This document shows positions 3,001 to 37,782 of a stretch of 64,000 bases of DNA, piece after piece (the stretch's first letter is position 1; the number at the start of each line of letters is the position of its first letter). The DNA is from Ereboglobus sp. PH5-10 (GTDB lineage: Bacteria > Verrucomicrobiota > Verrucomicrobiia > Opitutales > Opitutaceae). The stretch is from the NCBI RefSeq assembly GCF_029504735.1, contig NZ_JAQFIP010000008.1, forward strand, positions 1-64,000, in the 5' to 3' direction. The notes beneath the pieces were generated by a model. The model had not been told where the DNA came from and ran no database searches. It saw nothing but the letters and a program-made list of their open reading frames with translations. Position numbers and translations under genes: made by a program.

Positions 3001-6000
3001 ACGGAAATCGTGCCGGTGTTTTTCACCGTGCCGCCGCCGGCAAGGTGCACGCCGACCGTGCCGCCGGAGATCAGTCCGGTGGCGTTGTTGATGATCGTGG
3101 CGAGGCTGCCGGAGTAAATGCCCACGAGGTCCGTGCCTCGAATCGTGCCGGCGTTCGCAACAGTGCCTCCGCCGGCAAGATGCACGCCGATCGTGCCGCC
3201 GGAGATCAGTCCGGTGGCTTCATTGGTGACGAGTGTCGCGTTGGAACTAGAATAAATGCCCACGAGGTCCGTGCCGATGATCGTGCCGGCGTTCGTAACC
3301 GCGCCGCCGGCGGCAAGTTGCACGCCGTATTTGCCGCCCTCGACACGACCGCCGGTGTTGGCGAGCTCTGCGATATCCTTTGAATAGATGCCGGCACTGC
3401 CCGTGCCGATGATCGTGCCGCTGTTGGTGATCGTGCTCGATCCCGCTATGTGCACGCCAGTGGTCCCTCCCTTAATGTAACCGTCGATGTTTTCGACTTC
3501 CGCATTGGTGCCGGAATAAATGCCGTAGCTGGCGGTGCCGGTGATTGCGCCGGTGTTGCGCACCCTGCCGCCTTCGCCCAGCCACACGCCGTTCAGTCCG
3601 CCCTGGATTTGGCCGCCGGTGTTTTCCACCACGGTGACGCCGGTGTCGGCGTAGATGCCGGTGTCGGTATCGCCGAGGATCGTGCCGGAGTTCGTAACCG
3701 TGCCGCCGACGTTCAGACGCACGCCGGTCTCGCCGCCTTGGATGAGGCCGGTGACAGCGGTGTTTTCGATCTTGACCGCGGCGTCGGCCTGAATGCCGAA
3801 GCTGGTGTTGCCAAGGATCGTGCCGCTGTTTGTGACCGTGCCGGCAGCGTCGGTCTGAACACCGATGTTGGCGCCTTCGATCAATCCGCTGTTTGTGACC
3901 GTGCCGCCCGCTGCGAGATTCACGGCAACGTCACCGGTGATCACTCCGCCGGTGTTTTCGACCACGGCCGCGCCGCCGGCATCAATGCCGTAGCCGCCTT
4001 CGATTGTGCCGCTGTTGATGATGGTGCCGCCTTGCATGAGTCTCACGCCGGTGTTGAAACCGTGGATCCAGCCGCCGGGTTTGTTTTCCACGTAGGCTTC
4101 GAGCGTTTCGATGCGCACGCCGTCGTTGCCGTGGATTTCGCCGGCGTTGATGACCGTGCCACCCTGCACGAGGTTCACGCCGGTGTCGCCGCCGTTGATG
4201 TAACCGCCGAGTTTGTTTTCCACGAGGGCTTCTGGGCCGTTGATGATCACGCCGAAGATGCCGTGGATTTCCCCGGCGTTGTCCACAGTGCCGCTTTGCA
4301 GCGAGACGCCGGCGTTGTTGTAGCCTTGGATCCAGCCGCCGGCGGCGTTGGTCACGAGTGTCGAGATGTTGAAGCCCTCCGCCCGGATGCCGTATTCGCC
4401 TTCGATGAGGCCGCTGTTGGTGATTTCAGCCGTGTCTTGTGTAACATAGACGGCCTCGCCATTATCCACTCGGATGGTGCCGGAGTTGACAAGTTTGCTA
4501 TCCCGCGCGTTGGTGCTTCCGTCGAGGTTCACGCCCTTGTCCATGCCTTGGATGAAGCCTTCGTTGTCGATGTCCGCCCGGCCTTGGGAATAAACGCCGT
4601 CGTTGTTCGTGCCGGTGATGACTCCATGGTTGACAAGGTTGAGATCGCTCGCGGCGTTGACGCCGTATTCCTGGCCGCTGATGAAGCCGCCAGGGTTGTT
4701 GGTAATCTTGATTTCGGGACCAGCGCCGGTGCGGATGCCGTCTCCAGCCAGGCCGTAAATCGTGCCGGAGTTGGTGATCGTCGCGCCGCCGTCGAGCTCC
4801 ATGCCGTGGATGCCGCCCTCGATCAGGCCGACGTTGGTCACCATGCCTCCACCGGCAAGATATGCGCCGGCCGCCTCGCCCCGAATGAGGCCGCGGGTGT
4901 CGTTGGTGATGTCCACCGCGCCCCCGTCGGTGCGCACGCCGTAGCTGCCGGCGCCCGTGCCGATGATCGTGCCGGTGTTCGCCACCGTGCCGCCGCCGGT
5001 GAGCCACACGCCGGCGGAACCGCCGGTGATGATGCTTGCGTAGTAGTCGTTGGTGACGGTGGTTTCCCCGTTGGGGCCGCCGTAAACGCCGACGCCGCTG
5101 GCCGGGTCGCGGCCCTCGATGCGGCCGGTGTTGGTGATCGTGCCGCCGGCGTCCAGCGTCACGCCTGTCGTCCCGCCGGAGATCGTCGCGTATTGGTCGT
5201 TGCGGATTTCGACGGGGACGTTGGAGGCCATGATGCCGTGGCTGCCAGCCGCGGTGCCCCTGATGATGGCGTTGTTCGTGTTGTGCACCGAGCCGCCGGC
5301 CTCGAGTGTGATCCCCGCGACACCGCCCTCAATCAGGGCGTTGTTGGTGATGTCGGCGACGGCGCCGGCGACATTGATGCCGTGGCCGAACGTGCCGATG
5401 ATCGTGCCGGAGTTGGTGACGGTGCCGCCCTGGGCGAGCTTGATGCCGGTGCCGGCGGTGATGTCGCCGCCAGCGTTGTTCGTGACGAGCGTGGCGTTGT
5501 TGTTGGAATAGACTCCATAATTGGTGCCGCCGGCGCCGCCGCGGATCGTGCCGGAGTTCTCAATCGTGCCGCCGGCATTCAGACTGACGCCGGTGTTGCC
5601 GAAGATGGAGCCGCCCGCGTTGTTCGTGACGAGTGTGGCGTTGTTGCCGGAAGAGACACCATAACTGCTGCCAACAATCGAGCCGGAGTTCTCAATCGTG
5701 CCGCCGGCACTCAGACCGACGCCGGTGGCGCCGGTGATGTAGCCGCCGGTGGTGTTCGTGACGAGCGTGGCGTTGCTGCCGGAAGAGACACCATAACTGA
5801 TGCCAACAATCGAGCCGGAGTTCTCAACCGTGCCGCCCGCGTTCAGGCTGACACCGGCATTGACACCCTGAATCAGGCCGCCGGCGTTGTTGGTTACCTG
5901 CGTGGCGTTGCTGGAGGAGGACACACCAAGTTTACTACCACCAGTGATCGTGCCGAAATTCGTGATCGTGCCGCCCGCGTTCAGGCTGACACCGGCATTG

Positions 6001-9000
6001 ACACCCTGAATCAGGCCGCCGGCGTTGTTGGTTACCTGCGTGGCGTTGCTGTTGGAATAGACCCCAAAATTGTTAGTGCTACGGATCGTGCCCGCGTTCG
6101 CGACCGTGCCGCCGGCATCCAGCCAGACGGCGGTGTTGCCGGAGATGGAGCCGCCGGTGGTGTTGCTCACGAGCGTGGCGTTGTCCTTGGATTGAACTCC
6201 AGACGAAGTGGAGCCGCGGATCGCGCCCGCGTTCGCGACCGTGCCGCCGGCATCCAGCCTGATGCCGGTGCGTGCTGTAATGACGCCGCCGGTGGTGTTG
6301 CTCACGAGCGTGGCGTTGTCCTTGGAATAGACGCCGAAATTGTTGATAGCGGTGATGGCGACAATCGAGCCGGAGTTAAAGACCGTGCCGCCGTGAACGA
6401 GGTTGATGCCGTAGGAGCCGCCGGTGATGACGCCGCTGGCGGCGTTGTTGACGGTGATCGCGGCGCCAAGCGCCTCGACGCCGGCATCGGCAACGCCGCG
6501 GATGGAGGTGGTGTTGCCGAGCGAGCCGGTGCTCGCAAAGGAGACTCCGACGTGGGTGGCGTCGATGGGGGTTGTGACCGTGTAATCGGCGTGGCTCAGG
6601 AAGGCCAAGCCCGTGCCGGTGACGGCGGTGATGGTGCCGGCGTTGATGAGCGTGGAGGACACGCCGATGACGATGCCCTGGGTGCCGGTGACGATGCCCC
6701 GGTTGTCAACGGAGCTGGTGCCGCCGGCGTAGATGCCGGCGTTGATGACACCGCCGGTGTTGTTGGTGATCGCGGCCTCGCCGCCGTTGACATAAACGCC
6801 GTAGCCGGCGTCGCCGCCGGTGATGGTGCCGGAGTTGGAGACGGTGCCGCCGGCGGTCAGATAGACGCCGTGGGTGCCGCCTTGGATGAGGCCGTTGGCG
6901 GCGTTGTTGACAAGAATGGCGCCGGTTCCGCCGACCACGCCGATGCCGTTTGTGCCGATGATCGTGCCGGTGTTGCCGAGCGAGCCGGTGGTTTCAAAAT
7001 GCACGCCCTCGTCGCCGCCCCGGATGAGGGAGCCGTTGGTGTAATCCGCGTGGCCCTTAAAGATGAGAGCCGTGCCGGTGACATCGATGGTGCCGGTGTT
7101 GACGAGCGTGGAGCTCGCGCCGATCTGAACGCCGAGGGCGCCGGTGACGAGGCCGCGGTTGTCAACGGTGGTGGTGCCGCCCGCGTAGATGCCGTTGTCG
7201 ATGACGCCGGTGGTGGCGTTGTTGACAACGGCGAGGCCGCCGTCCACGCGCACGGCGTGCTTGTTGGCGCTGGAGAGGGTGCCGGAGTTGTCAACCCGTC
7301 CGCCAGCCTGAAGCGTAACCGCATTTTGTTCCGTCGCGCGGATGAGCGCGCCCGCGTCATTTTCAACAACCGCGGCCGTGTTTTGGGCATAGACGCCATG
7401 CGCCCCTTGAATCGTGCCGGTGTTTTGCGCGGTGCCGCCTTGTAAAAAATTCACCGCGTCATTGCCCGTGCCTTCCACAAGGCCGCTGTTGACGACCAGG
7501 CCGGACGCGTTTTCAAACATTATCCCATCGACAGCGCCGCGGATGGCGCCGGAATTGAGCACCGTGCCGCCTTGTTCGAGATACACGCCCGTGTCGCCCG
7601 TGATCAGGCCGGTGTTGGTGTTGCTCACGAGGGTGTTGGCGCTGCCGGACCGGACGCCGACGCCGAGCGCGCCGATGCCGGAGATGGTGCCGGTGTTGGT
7701 GACCGTGCCGCCGCTCATAAGATACACGCCTGTGCCGCCCGGGCCGCCCGTGATCAGGCCGGTGCCGGAATTGCTCACGAGCGCGCTGGCGCTTGCGGAC
7801 CAGACGCCGACGCCGAGCGCGCCGGTGCCGGAGATGGTGCCGGTGTTGGTGACCACGCCGCCTTTGACGAGGCGCACGCCGGAATCGGCGGCCTCGATGA
7901 GGCCGGTCGAGAGATTGTCGATCAATGTGTCGGCAACCGTGGACTCAACGCCGAAGCTGCCGGTGCTGATGATTTTGCCGGCATTCTTGACGGTGCCGCC
8001 GCCGGTGGCGAGATACACGGCCCTGTAGCCGCTTTGAATCACGCCGTTCTGCAAGTTGTCGACGAAGATGCCGGCATCTCCGTTGATGGCACTGTTGGTG
8101 GCGCCGCCGGTGTTGTTGCCAGTGATCGTGCCGGCGTTGCGCACCGTGCCGCCGTTGCGCAGCGAAACGCCGCCCGCGCCCGAAATCATGCCGTCGGCGA
8201 TGTTGTCCACAAACGAGGAATTAGTGCTGGTGAAAACACCGTAGCCCGTGGAGCCTTCGATCGTGCCGGCATTGGTGACTGTGCCGCCGTTCATGAGATT
8301 CACGCCGTAGATGCCGCCGGTGATCTGCGCCGAGGTGGAATTGGTAATTGTGACCACGGCGGAAACGGCCTCCACGCCGGTAGAGTTCTCGCCCTCGATC
8401 TTGCCGGAGTTGACGATCTCGCCGCCTCGATTGAGGCGCACGCCAATGGTCGTGCCCGAGATGTGCCCGGTCGCGGCATTGTTGATCACGGTGTCGACGG
8501 TGTTGGACTCGAGGCCGACGCTGCCGGTGCTGGTGATCGAGCCGGAATTGAGCACCGTGCCGCCATACGAGAGATACACGGCCCTGTTGTTGCTTCGAAT
8601 CACGCCGCCCTCCTTGTTGTCGATGAGCATGCTGACTCCGCCATAGACGCCGTTGTCATTGTTGAAGCCATCGTCATAGCCAATGATCGTGCCGGAATTG
8701 ACCACCGTGCCGCCGGCACGCAACGAAACACCGCCGCTGCCCTCAATCACGCCCCCGGTGGTGTTGGATATGAACGCGGCGTTGGTGCCGGAGAGAACAC
8801 CGTAGTTTGCGGAGAGATTGCCGCCGGAAATCGTGCCGGCGTTGTAAAGCGTGCCGCCGTTCATGAGGCGCACGCCAACGTGCGAGCCCGAGATGTGCCC
8901 GGTCGCGGCATTGTCGATCACGGTGTTGACGGCGTTGGACAGGATGCCGAAGGTGCCGGTGCTGGTGATCGCGCCGGCATTGAGCACCGTGCCGCCGGCA

Positions 9001-9735: not shown

Positions 9736-10719
9736 AAATCAGGGAAATTTTGTAATGGATGTGCGCAAAGATATTTTGTTCCCAATTGCGCGTCCATGTC
9801 TTGTGATGCGATTGCTTCGGTTTGTTAAGAATAATTTTGTTAAATCCCCCCAAAAAGCTATTGCAAACAAGGTGCACAAGAAAGAGGCAAAGCAAGAAGG
9901 GACTGGATGTTACAAAATCAGTGCAAGAATGATTTTAGCGCCCAAAAAGCACAAGAAAACTAGAGTCTCTCTGGCTAAAAAAACGGCCTGAGCGCGCCGT
10001 GCTTCCACTGGCTACTGGCCATGGATATCCCGGCACAATCGTGCCCAGACAATCGACGCAAGAGACACAGGGTTGGCGCCAAATTTCATATTTTTTTCAA
10101 ACAAAAGCATTTCGGACGCCGGAACCGCCGGAAATACGCAAGGTCGGAAGCCGGCAATCTGTCCATGCCCGACACTCTCACATTAATTTCCCGCTTTGCA
10201 CAGGCCGCGCCGGGAACCCGCGCGAACGGCCCCAAAACAGCGGCTTTCGCCGCGCCATGCCACCGGGGCGTAAACCGGCATACACGCGCGCTGCTTGATT
10301 CCGTGACACGTCCATCCCGAAAACAAATCACTCGAGGCAATAGGGGCGTCCGCCCGAGCCTCACCCGAGCCTGATCGACGGCCTGTTTCGCGAAAACAAT
10401 GCCTGTGCGGGAAAATCGCATGGAGCCATGCGCCTGCGAGCGAGTTTGGAACGGCTGGGCTCATTCGATTTATTTGGCCGCACCTCATGGCGGGGCGAAC
10501 CCTCCGGGTGAGCCGAAACACCCCTGGCACACCGGGACTGCTCGCCTGGCAAAAGGGCTTTCCCTTGCAACAATTCATACCGGAAAAACGCCAACGGGTG
10601 GGCGGCTCGCAAGGACACCAAGAATTACGGAAGGCGGCACATACAGCGCGCCGGCGAAACCGTCGCGCCGCGTCAATCGAAAGGACGCCCGGAGTTTTTG
10701 AAGCAAAGGGGAAACGTCA
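9736..10719. other. Roughly 1 kb stretch without a convincing gene
   Basis: 9740-9990 is visibly A/T-rich and 10000-10700 is G/C-rich. Short open frames overlap on both strands, but none has a recognisable domain, a plausible start context or protein-like composition; several are arginine/proline/cysteine-rich, as in frames read across noncoding G/C-rich DNA. The only structured feature seen is a 27-base sequence at 10489-10515 that resembles one arm of the inverted repeat at 16846-16915. The left part probably holds the autotransporter promoter region. Confidence 0.5.
10489..10515. repeat. Solitary arm of the 16846 inverted-repeat family
   Basis: These 27 bases match the left arm at 16846-16872 at 24 positions (core GGGCGAACC...GGTGAGCCG). 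No partner arm was found nearby, so this is probably a decayed copy. Confidence 0.6.
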
Positions 10720-33654: not shown

Positions 33655-35031
33655 ATGTCCGATCACGCACACTCCATCCATTCCGGTCGCGCGCTGCTGG
33701 TGATTTGCACCGCGGCGTTCTTGGCACCGTTCATGGGGTCGGCGCTCAACCTCGCGCTGCCGGAGATCAGCGCGTCGCTTTCGCTCGATGCCGTCGAGCT
33801 TACCTGGCTCACAATCGCCTACCTGATTCCCACCGCGATTTTTCAGGTTCCCGCGGCGCGCATGGGCGACTTGCTCGGGCGCAAGCGCGTGTTCGTTTGG
33901 GGTGTGCTCGGGTTTTCGCTGTTCACTTTCGCATCGGGGTTTGCCCCGTCGGGAACGGTGTTGATCGCGCTCCGGTTTCTCGCCGGGATGTGCTGCGCGA
34001 TGATGTTCGGCAACAACATCGCCATCCTCACCTCGGTGTTTCCGCCGCATGAGCGCGGCAAGGTGCTCGGCATCAACACGGCCATGGTCTATTCGTCGCT
34101 CGCGGCGGGTCCGTTTGTCGGCGGGCTGCTCACGCATTATTTCGGGTGGCAAAGCATTTTCTTTGTCAGCGGGGCGGTCAGTTTCGCGGTGCATATATTT
34201 GCGCGCGTCTATTTGAAGGGGGAATGGACGGTGGCAAAGGGCGAGCGGTTCGATTACGCGGGCAGCGTGCTGTATGGAATCGGCATCATGGGGTTGATTT
34301 GCGGCTTCACGCGGCTGTCGTCCATCGACGGTTTTGTGTGGCTGTCAATCGGCGGCGCGGCGCTATTTGCGTTTGTATATTATGAGCGGCGCTGCGACGC
34401 GCCGTTGATCAACTTAAAACTGTTCAGCGAGAACCGCGTCTTCGCGTTTTCCTCGCTCGCCACGCTCATCAATTACGCGGCCACGTCGGCAATCGCGTTC
34501 ATGCTGAGTTTATATTTGCAATATATAAAGGGAATGGACGCGCGGCACGCCGGCTTGATATTGATATCGCAAGCGTGCGTGATGGCCGTGTTCGCGCTTG
34601 TCTCGGGGCGATTGTCCGACCGTTTTTCGGCCTCGCGCCTTGCCACGTTTGGCATGGCGGTAATCGTCGCCGGCCTTGTGATCATGCTGTTTTTGTCGCC
34701 GACAACACCCATCGGGGTCATCATCGGCAGTCTGTTTTTGCTCGGCCTTGGATTCGGCCTGTTTTCCTCGCCAAACACAAACGTTATCATGGGCTCGGTG
34801 GACAAGAAACACTACGGCCAAGCCTCCGCCACAACCGGCACGATGCGCCTGACCGGCCAGGCCTTCAGCATGGGCATCGCGGGAATGGTGATCGCGCTAA
34901 AAATCGGCAACAGGCAAATCACGCCGGAGATTTTCCCCCAGTTCATGCAAAGCCTGCGCATCACATTCATAATATTCGTGGTGCTGTGCGTGATCGGCAT
35001 CTACGCCTCGTCGGTGAGGACGAAAAAATAG
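33655..35031 (+). CDS. MFS transporter, DHA2-like (14 helices)
   Basis: 458 residues with about 14 hydrophobic segments. The helix 2-3 loop motif GDLLGRKRVFVWG and motif C-like MVYSSLAAGPFVGGLL mark a drug:H+ antiporter of the DHA2 type, an inner-membrane exporter of unknown substrate. The ATG at 33655 was preferred since the upstream 57 residues of the frame do not look like protein and lie in the divergent promoter region. The last codons (GIYASSVRTKK, stop) are duplicated at 36333-36368. Confidence 0.87.
   Translation: MSDHAHSIHSGRALLVICTAAFLAPFMGSALNLALPEISASLSLDAVELTWLTIAYLIPTAIFQVPAARMGDLLGRKRVFVWGVLGFSLFTFASGFAPSGTVLIALRFLAGMCCAMMFGNNIAILTSVFPPHERGKVLGINTAMVYSSLAAGPFVGGLLTHYFGWQSIFFVSGAVSFAVHIFARVYLKGEWTVAKGERFDYAGSVLYGIGIMGLICGFTRLSSIDGFVWLSIGGAALFAFVYYERRCDAPLINLKLFSENRVFAFSSLATLINYAATSAIAFMLSLYLQYIKGMDARHAGLILISQACVMAVFALVSGRLSDRFSASRLATFGMAVIVAGLVIMLFLSPTTPIGVIIGSLFLLGLGFGLFSSPNTNVIMGSVDKKHYGQASATTGTMRLTGQAFSMGIAGMVIALKIGNRQITPEIFPQFMQSLRITFIIFVVLCVIGIYASSVRTKK
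34996..35031 (+). repeat. Direct repeat, left copy (3' end of MFS gene)
   Basis: These 36 bases are the last 11 codons and stop of the MFS gene. They match 36333-36368 at 32 positions. Three of the four differences are synonymous and one changes Tyr to His. Confidence 0.9.
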
Positions 35032-35046
35032 GAGAATCATCGTCGA

Positions 35047-36216
35047 TCAAGTTTCATCCGTGCGAAGGCCTCGTATGAATTTCCCCAGTGATATTGCGGT
35101 CGTTTTGGCGTCCAGCGGATAGGTTTCCCCGCCTGAATAAATGACCCATTGCCGTGTGGCCTTTATGTCTGCGCAACCTATGTGGAATCCTTTGCTCACG
35201 GTTGGCGCGAGGCCTTTTTTGATCTCCACTGCCCAGCGGCAGCGCTTGGGCAACTCCATAACAAGGTCAATTTCCGCGCCCGCCGAGGTTCGGTAAAAAT
35301 AACAATGCGCGCCCTCGGGCATGGCCGCGATTATGTTTTCGATCACATGCCCCTCCCAAGAGGCTCCGGCGACTGGATGTCCGAGCAAGTCGTCCTCGGT
35401 GTCAATACCAAGCAGACAATGAAGCAGGCCGGTGTCGCGAAAATAGATTTTCGGTGATTTCACCAGGCGTTTGCCGACGTTTTGATGCCACGGTTCGAGA
35501 CGGCGGACGAGCAGGAGATCGACGAACAAATCCAGATACGAGGCGACCGTCTTGCCATCAACCCCGAGCGACTGGGCGATGGTGGCGGCGTTGTGCAGTC
35601 CGCCATGCCGGTGCGCGAGCATCGTCCAAAAGCGGCGCAATGTTTCCGCGGGAATGCGCGGGCCAAGCTGAGGGATGTCTCGTTCGAGGTAAGTGCGAAT
35701 AAAGTCCCGCCGCCACGACATGCTGGCTGCGTCGGTTTTGGCCGTGAAACTTTCGGGGAAACCTCCGCGCACCCAGAGCGCGGAGGCATGTTTTTGGCCG
35801 ACCTCCTCAAGCGTGAGCGGGCTAAGTTCAATGTAACTGATGCGCCCGGCGAGGGATTCGCTGGATTGTCGCAGAAGGTCGAGCGACGCGGAACCGAGCA
35901 GCAGAAATCGTCCGTTCTTTTTCTGACGCCGAATGCGGTCAATACTGCCACGCAGGGTTTGAAAGAGCCCGGGTTTGCGCTGGATTTCATCGAGAATCAC
36001 GCAGTCGTCCTCGTGCTTCGAGAGATAGAGTTCCGGGTCGCTGAGTTTCGCCAAGTCGCTTTCGGATTCGAGGTCGAGATAAACCGAGGAAGGCATGGAG
36101 TCGGCCACGGTGATCGCGAGGGTCGTCTTGCCGACTTGCCGAGGTCCAAGCAATGCGACTGCCGAACGTTCGGACAGGCGTGCTTTCAACAATGGAAGGA
36201 TATGGCGGGCAATCAT
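35047..36216 (-). CDS. AAA ATPase with DUF4143 C-terminal domain
   Basis: 389 residues from MIARHILPLLK. The AAA_14 part has Walker A LLGPRQVGKTT (about 22-32) and Walker B CVILDEIQ (about 70-77), then a sensor-like FLLLGSASLDLLRQS. The C-terminal DUF4143 region includes RTYLERDIPQL, VASYLDLFVDLLLVRRL, KSPKIYFRDTGLLHCLLG and a nuclease-like ending with EIDLVMEL...WAVEIKKG. The family is widespread and patchily distributed; its role is unsettled, though its C-terminus resembles PD-(D/E)xK folds. GAGGT precedes the ATG by 5 bases; an ATG 12 bases upstream is possible. The gene lies inside a unit flanked by direct repeats. Confidence 0.9.
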   Translation of the reverse strand: MIARHILPLLKARLSERSAVALLGPRQVGKTTLAITVADSMPSSVYLDLESESDLAKLSDPELYLSKHEDDCVILDEIQRKPGLFQTLRGSIDRIRRQKKNGRFLLLGSASLDLLRQSSESLAGRISYIELSPLTLEEVGQKHASALWVRGGFPESFTAKTDAASMSWRRDFIRTYLERDIPQLGPRIPAETLRRFWTMLAHRHGGLHNAATIAQSLGVDGKTVASYLDLFVDLLLVRRLEPWHQNVGKRLVKSPKIYFRDTGLLHCLLGIDTEDDLLGHPVAGASWEGHVIENIIAAMPEGAHCYFYRTSAGAEIDLVMELPKRCRWAVEIKKGLAPTVSKGFHIGCADIKATRQWVIYSGGETYPLDAKTTAISLGKFIRGLRTDET

Positions 36217-36224
36217 ACCACCTC

Positions 36225-36253
36225 GCATTTATGGAGTCGCATTCCAGAAATGC
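36225..36253 (-). promoter_or_regulatory. Palindrome at the ATPase start
   Basis: GCATTT (36225-36230) and AAATGC (36248-36253) form an inverted repeat 9-37 bases upstream of the ATPase start, a possible operator. No regulator is identified. Confidence 0.3.
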
Positions 36254-36332
36254 AAGGATGATTACATGGCAATAAAGAGCGCCAAATTGACCAATCCCGC
36301 ACCAATCTAGCAATTAATTCGCATCAACCGAC

Positions 36333-36368
36333 GGTATCCACGCCTCGTCAGTGAGGACGAAGAAATAG
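36333..36368 (+). pseudogene. Remnant of an MFS gene 3' end (direct repeat, right copy)
   Basis: These 36 bases read GIHASSVRTKK followed by a stop, nearly the same as the end of the MFS gene at 34996-35031. Nothing upstream of base 36333 continues the MFS reading frame. It is either the last piece of a deleted tandem MFS copy or a target duplication made when the ATPase unit arrived. Confidence 0.7.
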
Positions 36369-36372
36369 CCGA

Positions 36373-37782
36373 TCACCCTTTCCTTTTTCCGCGCATCTCC
36401 GCCTGAATCGTCGCGCGCATTTCGCGCCAGCGGGCGAGCCGCTCGGCGATTCGCGCCTCCGAGCCCGCCGTCTTCGGCGTGAACAAAGACACCGGTTTTT
36501 CCAGGTAGGCCTGTCCCGAAATATTCTCCGGGTAATCGTGCGCATACATGTAGTCCCTGCCCTGCCCCATGCGTTTGTTCGCCTGGCCGCTGCTTGAACG
36601 GCAGGACTCCGGCACTCGCTGCACCACGCCGCTCGCGATCTGCGCCTTCGCCGCGTGCAGGCCGAGCGTGATCGAGTTGCTCTTGCACGCGCACGCGATG
36701 TAAACTGTCGCGTGCGCCAGCGCGTATTCGCACTCCGGAAGGCCGACAAAATCGCACGCATGATGCGCCGCCACCGCCAGCGGCAACGCCAGCGGATCGG
36801 CCAGTCCCACGTCCTCCGACGCCAGAATCACCAAGCGGCGCGCGATAAATCGCGGGTCTTCGCCGCCCGCCAGCATTTTGGCCAGCCAGTAAAGCGCCGC
36901 GTCCGGATCGCTGCCGCGGCAGCTTTTGATAAAAACCGAAATTGTGTCGTAATGCTCGTCCTCGTCGGCGTCATAGCGCACGCGCCGCTCGCGCGCGAAC
37001 GCCTCCAGTTCCTCCGGCGTGATCTCGCGTTTCGCACCGCCCTCAGCCGGCGGCATGCTCAGCACGATCACCTCGAGCGAATTGAGCGCGCGCCGCAAAT
37101 CGCCGTCGCACAGCACCGCCAAGTCCGACAGCACCGCATCGCTCGCGGTCACGCCATGCGAGCCAAGGCCGCGCTCGGAATCGGCCAGCGCGCGCTTCAG
37201 CACACCCGCCACCGACGAGGCCGAGAGCGGCTCCAGCCGGAACAAATGACTGCGGCTCAGCAGCGGCGGATTCACATAAAATCCCGGATTGTGCGTCGTC
37301 GCGCCGATGAGCCGGATGTAGCCTTCCTCGACATCCGGCAGCAGCAAATCCTGCTGCGATTTGTTGAAACGGTGCAGCTCGTCAATGAACAACAGCGTCG
37401 GCGAGTCCGGCTGCGATCGCGCCTCCGCCAAAATCTCGCGCAGCTCCGCCACGTTGGACATCACCGCGTTGATGCGCACGAACCGGCTATTCGTCTCGCG
37501 CGCGATCACCTCCGCGAAACTCGTTTTCCCGCAACCCGGCGGTCCGTAAAAAATCAGGCTGCCAAAACGGTTGCTCGCGATCAAACGCGGCAGCAGCGCG
37601 CCCTTCGCCGTCAAATGCTCCTGTCCGACGATTTCGTCCAGAGCGCGCGGCCGCATTCGCGCCGCCAGCGGTTGCGCCGCCGAGGGTTTTTGCGGCATCG
37701 CGCTCAAAGCGCGCGCGCCGCGCGCCTTGCCCTTCGGTGCGAAACTCCCGCCAAAAAGATCAGCCTGTTCATCAAGTGCCAT
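36373..37782 (-). CDS. rarA: Replication-associated recombination protein A (MgsA)
   Basis: 469 residues, AAA+ clamp-loader-like ATPase acting at stalled forks. After an N-terminal tail, RMRPRALDEIVGQEHL opens the AAA+ domain; Walker A is GPPGCGKTSF, Walker B LLFIDELHRFNKSQQD, and sensor 1 is IRLIGATTHNPGF. The C-terminal tetramerisation region includes SCRGSDPDAALYWLAKMLAGGEDPRFIARR (in two blocks) and ASEDVGLADP. The start MALDEQADLFG was chosen; the open frame continues far upstream antisense to the ABC transporter gene and is not real there. It is divergent from the ABC transporter operon. Confidence 0.95.
   Translation of the reverse strand: MALDEQADLFGGSFAPKGKARGARALSAMPQKPSAAQPLAARMRPRALDEIVGQEHLTAKGALLPRLIASNRFGSLIFYGPPGCGKTSFAEVIARETNSRFVRINAVMSNVAELREILAEARSQPDSPTLLFIDELHRFNKSQQDLLLPDVEEGYIRLIGATTHNPGFYVNPPLLSRSHLFRLEPLSASSVAGVLKRALADSERGLGSHGVTASDAVLSDLAVLCDGDLRRALNSLEVIVLSMPPAEGGAKREITPEELEAFARERRVRYDADEDEHYDTISVFIKSCRGSDPDAALYWLAKMLAGGEDPRFIARRLVILASEDVGLADPLALPLAVAAHHACDFVGLPECEYALAHATVYIACACKSNSITLGLHAAKAQIASGVVQRVPESCRSSSGQANKRMGQGRDYMYAHDYPENISGQAYLEKPVSLFTPKTAGSEARIAERLARWREMRATIQAEMRGKRKG

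Follow-up and report, generated by a model that had tools for sequence, protein, structure and literature searches.

The DUF4143 ATPase gene studied here lies in a stretch of 64,000 nucleotides of Ereboglobus sp. PH5-10 (contig NZ_JAQFIP010000008.1, positions 1 to 64,000, forward strand; hereafter the window), between an MFS transporter gene and rarA, and the last bases of the MFS gene stand on both sides of it. Flanking duplications are far commoner around DUF4143 genes than around neighbouring genes, which marks DUF4143 genes as cassettes moving repeatedly into new places. For the window, we consider it probable, with moderate confidence, that a self-contained cassette was inserted by illegitimate, probably homology-assisted, recombination, leaving the MFS 3' end on both sides. 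The observed basis consists of the repeat itself, its sharing with a sister genome, the excess of flanking repeats in the family, varied duplications of gene ends and a changed gene start at another locus of the genome (L101); the insertion route is the part that we infer as the most likely one. Below, L-numbers denote individual loci compared and G-numbers genomes: G000 is the source genome (3.58 Mb), G001 a sister genome of the same genus, and G002 and G003 are outgroups.

The window locus is composed as follows.
33655 to 35031, plus strand: MFS transporter gene with the duplicated 3' end (MFS_1, E 7e-68; start codon placed by eye).
34995 to 35031, plus strand: copy A, the last 37 bases of the MFS gene including the stop codon (repeat search).
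35032 to 35046: spacer of 15 base pairs (bp) from the MFS stop to the DUF4143 stop, with the same sequence in G001.
35047 to 36228, minus strand: DUF4143 ATPase gene (Pfam DUF4143 and AAA_14), with an AAA ATPase, a winged-helix stretch and a PD-(D/E)XK-like domain.
36332 to 36368, plus strand: copy B, the orphan MFS 3' end; the RarA stop codon follows after 4 bp (repeat search).
36373 to 37782, minus strand: AAA ATPase gene of RarA/MgsA type, next to the unit on the side away from MFS (MgsA_C, E 4e-56; start placed by eye).

The first-pass annotation had reported that the end of the MFS gene recurs with four changes, three of them synonymous, and that an ATPase gene lies between the copies. 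Both statements hold, with the corrections that the repeat has 37 rather than 36 bases and that copy B starts at 36332; the gene between the copies carries AAA_14 and DUF4143. Copies A and B are identical at 33 of 37 positions, and the one nonsynonymous difference in the MFS frame changes Tyr to His. The orphan keeps the orientation and frame of the MFS gene and ends at a stop codon, and the rarA stop codon follows at 36373-36375. Judged by eye from a comparison of relatives, the ATG that ends at 36216 is the more likely start of the ATPase gene. The closest NCBIfam model for the MFS gene is efflux_EmrB (163 bits, under the cut-off of 230). With 400-bp flanks, the repeat around the DUF4143 gene scored 25, while the other 33 tested genes of the window scored 7-13, with one exception at 18. 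Moreover, a degenerate pattern allowing at most 3 mismatches found two places only in the whole 3.58-Mb genome, namely copies A and B. In view of this rarity and the flank scores of the other genes, a chance origin was rejected, and so was a dispersed repeat of G000, given the mere two copies. A match to the repeat in G027 (89%) lies inside an open reading frame of 603 residues and was taken as chance.

G001 has the same arrangement as G000, and its two repeat copies are identical at 34 of 37 positions. Between these genomes, the MFS gene differs by 1.4% and the stretch from the ATPase start to copy B by 6.8%. The MFS protein is 72% identical in G002 and 71% in G003; MFS and rarA are not adjacent in these outgroups, and rarA has another neighbour there. 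No DUF4143 gene was seen behind the outgroup MFS gene within the readable 217 bases of G002 or about 1,500 bases of G003. Comparison with an empty site in related strains had been proposed in the first-pass annotation, and none was found for the MFS/rarA locus in these three relatives: G001 also holds the insert, and G002 and G003 are without the adjacency. The same annotation had suggested that a tandem MFS copy was lost and replaced by the ATPase. According to this, a second MFS gene once stood in tandem and was mostly lost on arrival of the ATPase; the orientation, frame and terminal stop codon of the orphan agree with it, and G003 has a second MFS-family gene behind its copy. However, this gene is on the opposite strand, no close MFS paralogue appears for G000 among the matches listed (the next best is just 27% identical over 145 residues), and one would have to assume this coincidence anew at several DUF4143 loci, whose neighbours are unrelated and include a tRNA. 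The evidence thus does not support the loss of a tandem copy, which we find hardly credible.

To compare the family as a whole, a profile built from at most 28 DUF4143 loci was applied to loci from relatives, 80 loci of many phyla and 132 genomes of the order. Its yield was 253 distinct genes with a length of 250 residues or more, and the flanks of 248 could be tested; as controls we used 769 other genes from these loci, each 180 residues or longer. When the two 600-bp flanks were compared, a direct repeat scoring 20 or more was present around 46 of the 248 DUF4143 genes and 23 of the 769 controls; when the event shared by G000 and G001 is counted once, the figures are 45/247 and 23/769 (Fisher p 3e-14; odds ratio stratified by locus 9.3). 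A crude rule, applied on both sides, dropped repeats found at more than two places in the locus or matching another compared locus, and left 21/247 DUF4143 genes vs 7/769 controls (p 1e-8); it also drops the repeats of the window, L290, L200, L267 and L273. As a separate observation, a sequence of 45-50 bp at 206-250, 2070-2119 and 3544-3593 of L276 flanks two neighbouring DUF4143 genes, and another count gives four places for it in that locus.

Some of the repeats consist of the 3' end of an adjacent gene or tRNA (8/247 DUF4143 genes vs 1/769 controls), a class sorted by hand and defined after the list of repeats had been viewed. Partial duplications of a neighbour's 3' end beside DUF4143 genes, which the first-pass annotation had recommended looking for in other genomes, were found. 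The cases outside the window are given below; names of neighbour genes other than tRNA were judged by eye from sequence.
L203: 71 bp, end of an arsenate-reductase/transporter-like gene.
L321: 66 bp, stop codon included.
L290: about 260 bp, end of a glycerate-kinase-like gene plus downstream sequence.
L267 and L273: both in one genome, ends of genes related to each other.
L200, 3319 to 6305: rfbC-like 3' end, present three times.
L314: 42 bp, perfect, 3' end of a tRNA-Pro gene, with DUF4143 as the only recognised gene between the copies.
L279 (G124), 1631 to 1736 and 4423 to 4528: the sole control case, end of a MutS-like gene; the two copies flank a 700-residue gene, and DUF4143 genes are also on this stretch.
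In L200, a PIN-toxin-like module lies between the first two rfbC-like ends and the DUF4143 gene between the last two, an arrangement that looks like successive additions of cassettes at one gene end.

The differences between coding copies tell something about their origin. Synonymous and nonsynonymous differences number 3 and 1 in the window, 3 and 0 in L203, 3 and 0 in L267, 6 and 1 in L321, 3 and 2 in L290 (134-bp alignment) and 4 and 14 in L273. When pooled, 22 of 40 differences are synonymous vs 22% expected (p 6e-6), and 18 of 22 are so without L273; the copies of L200 (7 synonymous and 11 nonsynonymous) were left out of the pool. Over the last 207 nucleotides of L290, comparison with G043 gave 7 derived changes for each copy, orphan and gene-attached alike, and decay of the orphan alone does not fit such equal numbers. 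For L321, comparison by eye with three relatives pointed in no single direction. Because of the synonymous bias between copies and the derived changes in both L290 copies, the two copies resemble a pair of alleles of the gene end. Plain target duplication is another origin to consider: the cassette would have been inserted at a break, the ends of the break filled in with 37 bp of the MFS end copied, and the orphan would have drifted later. This is consistent with the fact that all three window differences polarisable by G002 and G003 agree with copy A and lie in a changed copy B (by eye), and with the identity of the L314 copies over 42 bp. On the other hand, the synonymous bias in L203, L267, L321 and the window and the equal derived changes in L290 point to two alleles, and the copies are long and variable in length, from 37 to about 260 bp. 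We regard plain target duplication as possible but rather unlikely.

Insertion assisted by homology would proceed as follows. The DUF4143 cassette would have entered between MFS and rarA in the common ancestor of G000 and G001, carried by linear DNA from a related strain in which the neighbour gene and the cassette were already side by side. One side of this DNA would have recombined homologously within the neighbour gene, and the other side would have been joined illegitimately; if this join hit the end of the recipient's own gene, a short duplicate of that end would stay behind. One copy of the MFS end would then complete the MFS gene and the other would remain as the orphan before the rarA stop codon. 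Because rarA ends 4 bp past the MFS stop, a join sparing rarA would need to fall in the MFS end. Homology-facilitated illegitimate recombination would thus explain the duplicated gene ends, the two-allele copies and the join sparing rarA.

Elements that integrate in tRNA genes or icd bring a replacement gene end. Integration at an attachment (att) site by a recombinase acting in trans, with the unit as a mini integrative element bringing its own gene end, would also leave duplicated ends. Duplications of gene ends and of one tRNA 3' end are in line with this, above all the perfect tRNA-Pro end on both sides of L314 with DUF4143 as the sole recognised gene, and several copies look like functional alleles. 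However, the window unit holds five other overlapping open reading frames of 82-259 residues, none with a Pfam match, and no recombinase gene was found between the repeats. No shared target sequence was seen, the genes whose ends are duplicated are unrelated to one another (by eye) except for L267/L273, and 202 of the 247 DUF4143 genes are without a flanking repeat. Proximity to tRNA genes was not enriched either (4/247 DUF4143 genes vs 12/769 controls), and tRNA targeting was rejected as a general rule. Taken together, att-site integration seems improbable. The earlier proposal that the unit integrates at gene ends and rebuilds them, as integrative elements do, is thus borne out in one part, insertion beside genes that leaves or rewrites their ends, as the flanking-repeat and gene-end counts and L101 indicate; a site-specific integrase finds no support.

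A direction of change could be read at L101 (G000:C7), where another, distinct DUF4143 gene has a DeoR-type gene on one side and a carboxypeptidase gene on the other (both named by eye). This cassette is absent from G001. The carboxypeptidase gene has a similar leader and similar first codons in G001 and G002 but differs there in G000, which has the cassette (by eye). The cassette thus arrived in the G000 lineage once G001 had split off, and its neighbour acquired a changed start along with it. Six DUF4143 loci of G000 were compared with G001: one is shared, one is a remnant there, one corresponds to a short intergenic stretch, two have another gene in G001 and one has no anchor. Where empty sites were sought, the DUF4143 gene of L098 proved decayed in G001, another gene is at the site in L099 and L100, and G000 has other content at L104; no clean empty-site junction with a repeat was found at these four loci. 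In L104 of G001, a weak match to the end of DUF4143 (7570-7659, E 5e-4, below the cut-off) lies behind an intact DUF4143 gene and is perhaps a remnant of a second one. In rhizobia, the DUF4143 gene of plasmid pMLa adjoins repC, and in 3 of 10 regions of repABC plasmids (L362, L365 and L369) DUF4143 lies 0.2-1.9 kb downstream of repC and faces it. Among four related plasmid regions, L449 was read as lacking DUF4143 and L448 keeps the palindrome and first codons only; no insertion junction was readable in the four.

Several points weigh against insertion of a mobile cassette by this route. Copy B as the sole changed copy in the window is explained as well by duplication followed by decay, and no donor with MFS adjoining DUF4143 was found outside G000 and G001. 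L273 and L200 lack a clear synonymous bias, and the last 207 nucleotides of L290 hold 6 synonymous and 8 nonsynonymous differences. Most of the 45 flanking repeats are intergenic, and under the crude rule 24 of the 45 count as multi-copy or have a match in another locus; the gene-end class, as said, was drawn up by hand after the repeats had been seen. L101 has no flanking repeat, and the DeoR end there also differs between G000 and G001, a change without direction because G002 has another gene in front. Finally, PIN-toxin genes show the footprint too, so it is not special to DUF4143: a repeat flanks 7 of 69 PIN-toxin genes (the best of three flank definitions, hence a more generous figure) and 3 of 106 of their neighbours. 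The form in PIN toxins is weaker (7/69 vs 36/164 DUF4143 genes of the relatives' genomes, p 0.04), and it weakens the idea of a DUF4143-specific footprint.

The cassette seems to bring its own control, as far as can be read from the sequence around its start. Two features of the window are concerned.
36221 to 36257: proposed promoter/operator, an imperfect palindrome that encloses -35/-10-like boxes (boxes by eye) where the ATPase gene starts.
35047 to 36263, minus strand: portable core from the stop codon to just past the palindrome, with 87% DNA identity to L097 (blastn).
L097 (G000:C5) holds the closest paralogue in the genome (90% protein identity). An inverted repeat at the start that beat 40 shuffles was found for 117/251 DUF4143 genes vs 16/237 random control genes, and in 106 of the 117 it ends no more than 20 bases from the start or extends past it. 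These palindromes are gene-specific and lie at or just before the start codon, for example in L098 (6416-6458), L208, L186 and L081. Many of the arms hold -35/-10-like boxes with ATG directly after, and one subfamily has arms with TTGCAA- and TAAT-type boxes and ATG immediately next (both by eye). This layout would fit an autoregulated, perhaps leaderless, promoter, and with its own palindromic promoter the cassette could be expressed wherever it lands. A subclass (L059, L061, L076, L077 and L078) has upstream CAATTGGACG-like units about 21 bp apart and no palindrome; the last unit sits at the start codon in several members (by eye). In G000:C5, a PifA-like gene (PADLOC E 2e-74) adjoins the DUF4143 paralogue of L097 and is flanked by copies of the DUF4143 palindrome at 7984-8026 and 10584-10626 in direct orientation (score 19).

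The ATPase protein scored 169.4 bits for DUF4143 (cut-off 28.1) and 92.5 bits for AAA_14 (cut-off 27) in Pfam and matches the PDC-S01 models of PADLOC (PDLC04790, E 5.2e-94). Thus, the gene is a candidate defence gene. The motifs that we take to be the P-loop, Walker B and the nuclease-type E-x-D...E-x-K at the C-terminus are intact, and they are conserved in two family alignments. The AlphaFold model (40 aligned sequences) had a predicted local distance difference test score (pLDDT) of 94.5. When the front 275 residues of this predicted model were compared with VIA-align, the archaeal ATPases 2qen (Z 17.5) and 2fna (Z 16.9) came first, with root-mean-square deviations (rmsd) of 2.8 and 3.0 over 250 residues each, and STAND-type immune receptors came next. 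Foldseek with the whole model gave AAA matches with low template modelling (TM) scores, and sequence search against solved structures gave short P-loop matches only. For the last 126 residues folded alone, the top row was the TBP-interacting protein 2czr (Z 9.7, rmsd 4.5), followed by VRR_NUC 4qbn (Z 8.5, rmsd 3.0, 88 residues), then the repair endonuclease 2vld (8.3), Can2 (8.3), McrBC (8.0) and Hjc resolvases (6-7); many rows of this domain are PD-(D/E)XK nucleases, with middling Z. It is conceivable that DUF4143 ATPases are self-mobile: the PD-(D/E)XK-like ATPase would cut or mark DNA near gene ends, repair would copy the cassette and a flanking gene stretch from a related chromosome in the manner of homing endonuclease genes, and the start-codon palindrome would be operator and recognition site at once. 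We regard this as a very unlikely scenario.

The footprint resembles a known kind. Insertion with long target duplication has been described for restriction-modification genes (Nobusato et al. 2000, via excerpts of PMC1643837, PMC3031569 and PMC4978471), and an excerpt of PMC2654758 also cites such work. As there, a small unit is flanked by long, variable direct repeats of neighbouring sequence (here 37 bp); unlike there, the unit is a single-gene DUF4143 ATPase, and some repeats are ends of neighbour genes whose copies differ mostly synonymously. Homology-facilitated illegitimate recombination, with one homologous and one illegitimate side as in our explanation, is described in an excerpt of PMC3240628, and PMC5361080 (in excerpt) puts this route forward to account for the orphan immunity genes that stand behind new type VI effector modules. 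These accounts concern experiments or other genes, whereas our case is read from footprints alone. PDC-S01, whose models the window protein matches, is an ATPase fused to a member of the PD-(D/E)XK superfamily and is the fourth most common defence across prokaryotes, according to PMC12988326 (in excerpt); validation is said there to be pending for most such PADLOC candidates, and the excerpt covers transfers between domains and not the route of movement. DUF4143 is named in an excerpt of PMC4406477. Our literature searches found no report of such insertions for DUF4143 and no paper naming DUF4143 together with palindromes.

PDC-S01 is described as common, yet DUF4143 is seldom named in the literature searched. 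A measurable insertion footprint shows how such genes may spread, and it makes their insertions datable and countable from genomes. The gene-specific palindromes at the start codon are a direct handle on regulation and DNA recognition in the family. Moreover, since the footprint can change the ends of neighbour genes, it may explain some odd gene ends and orphan gene fragments.

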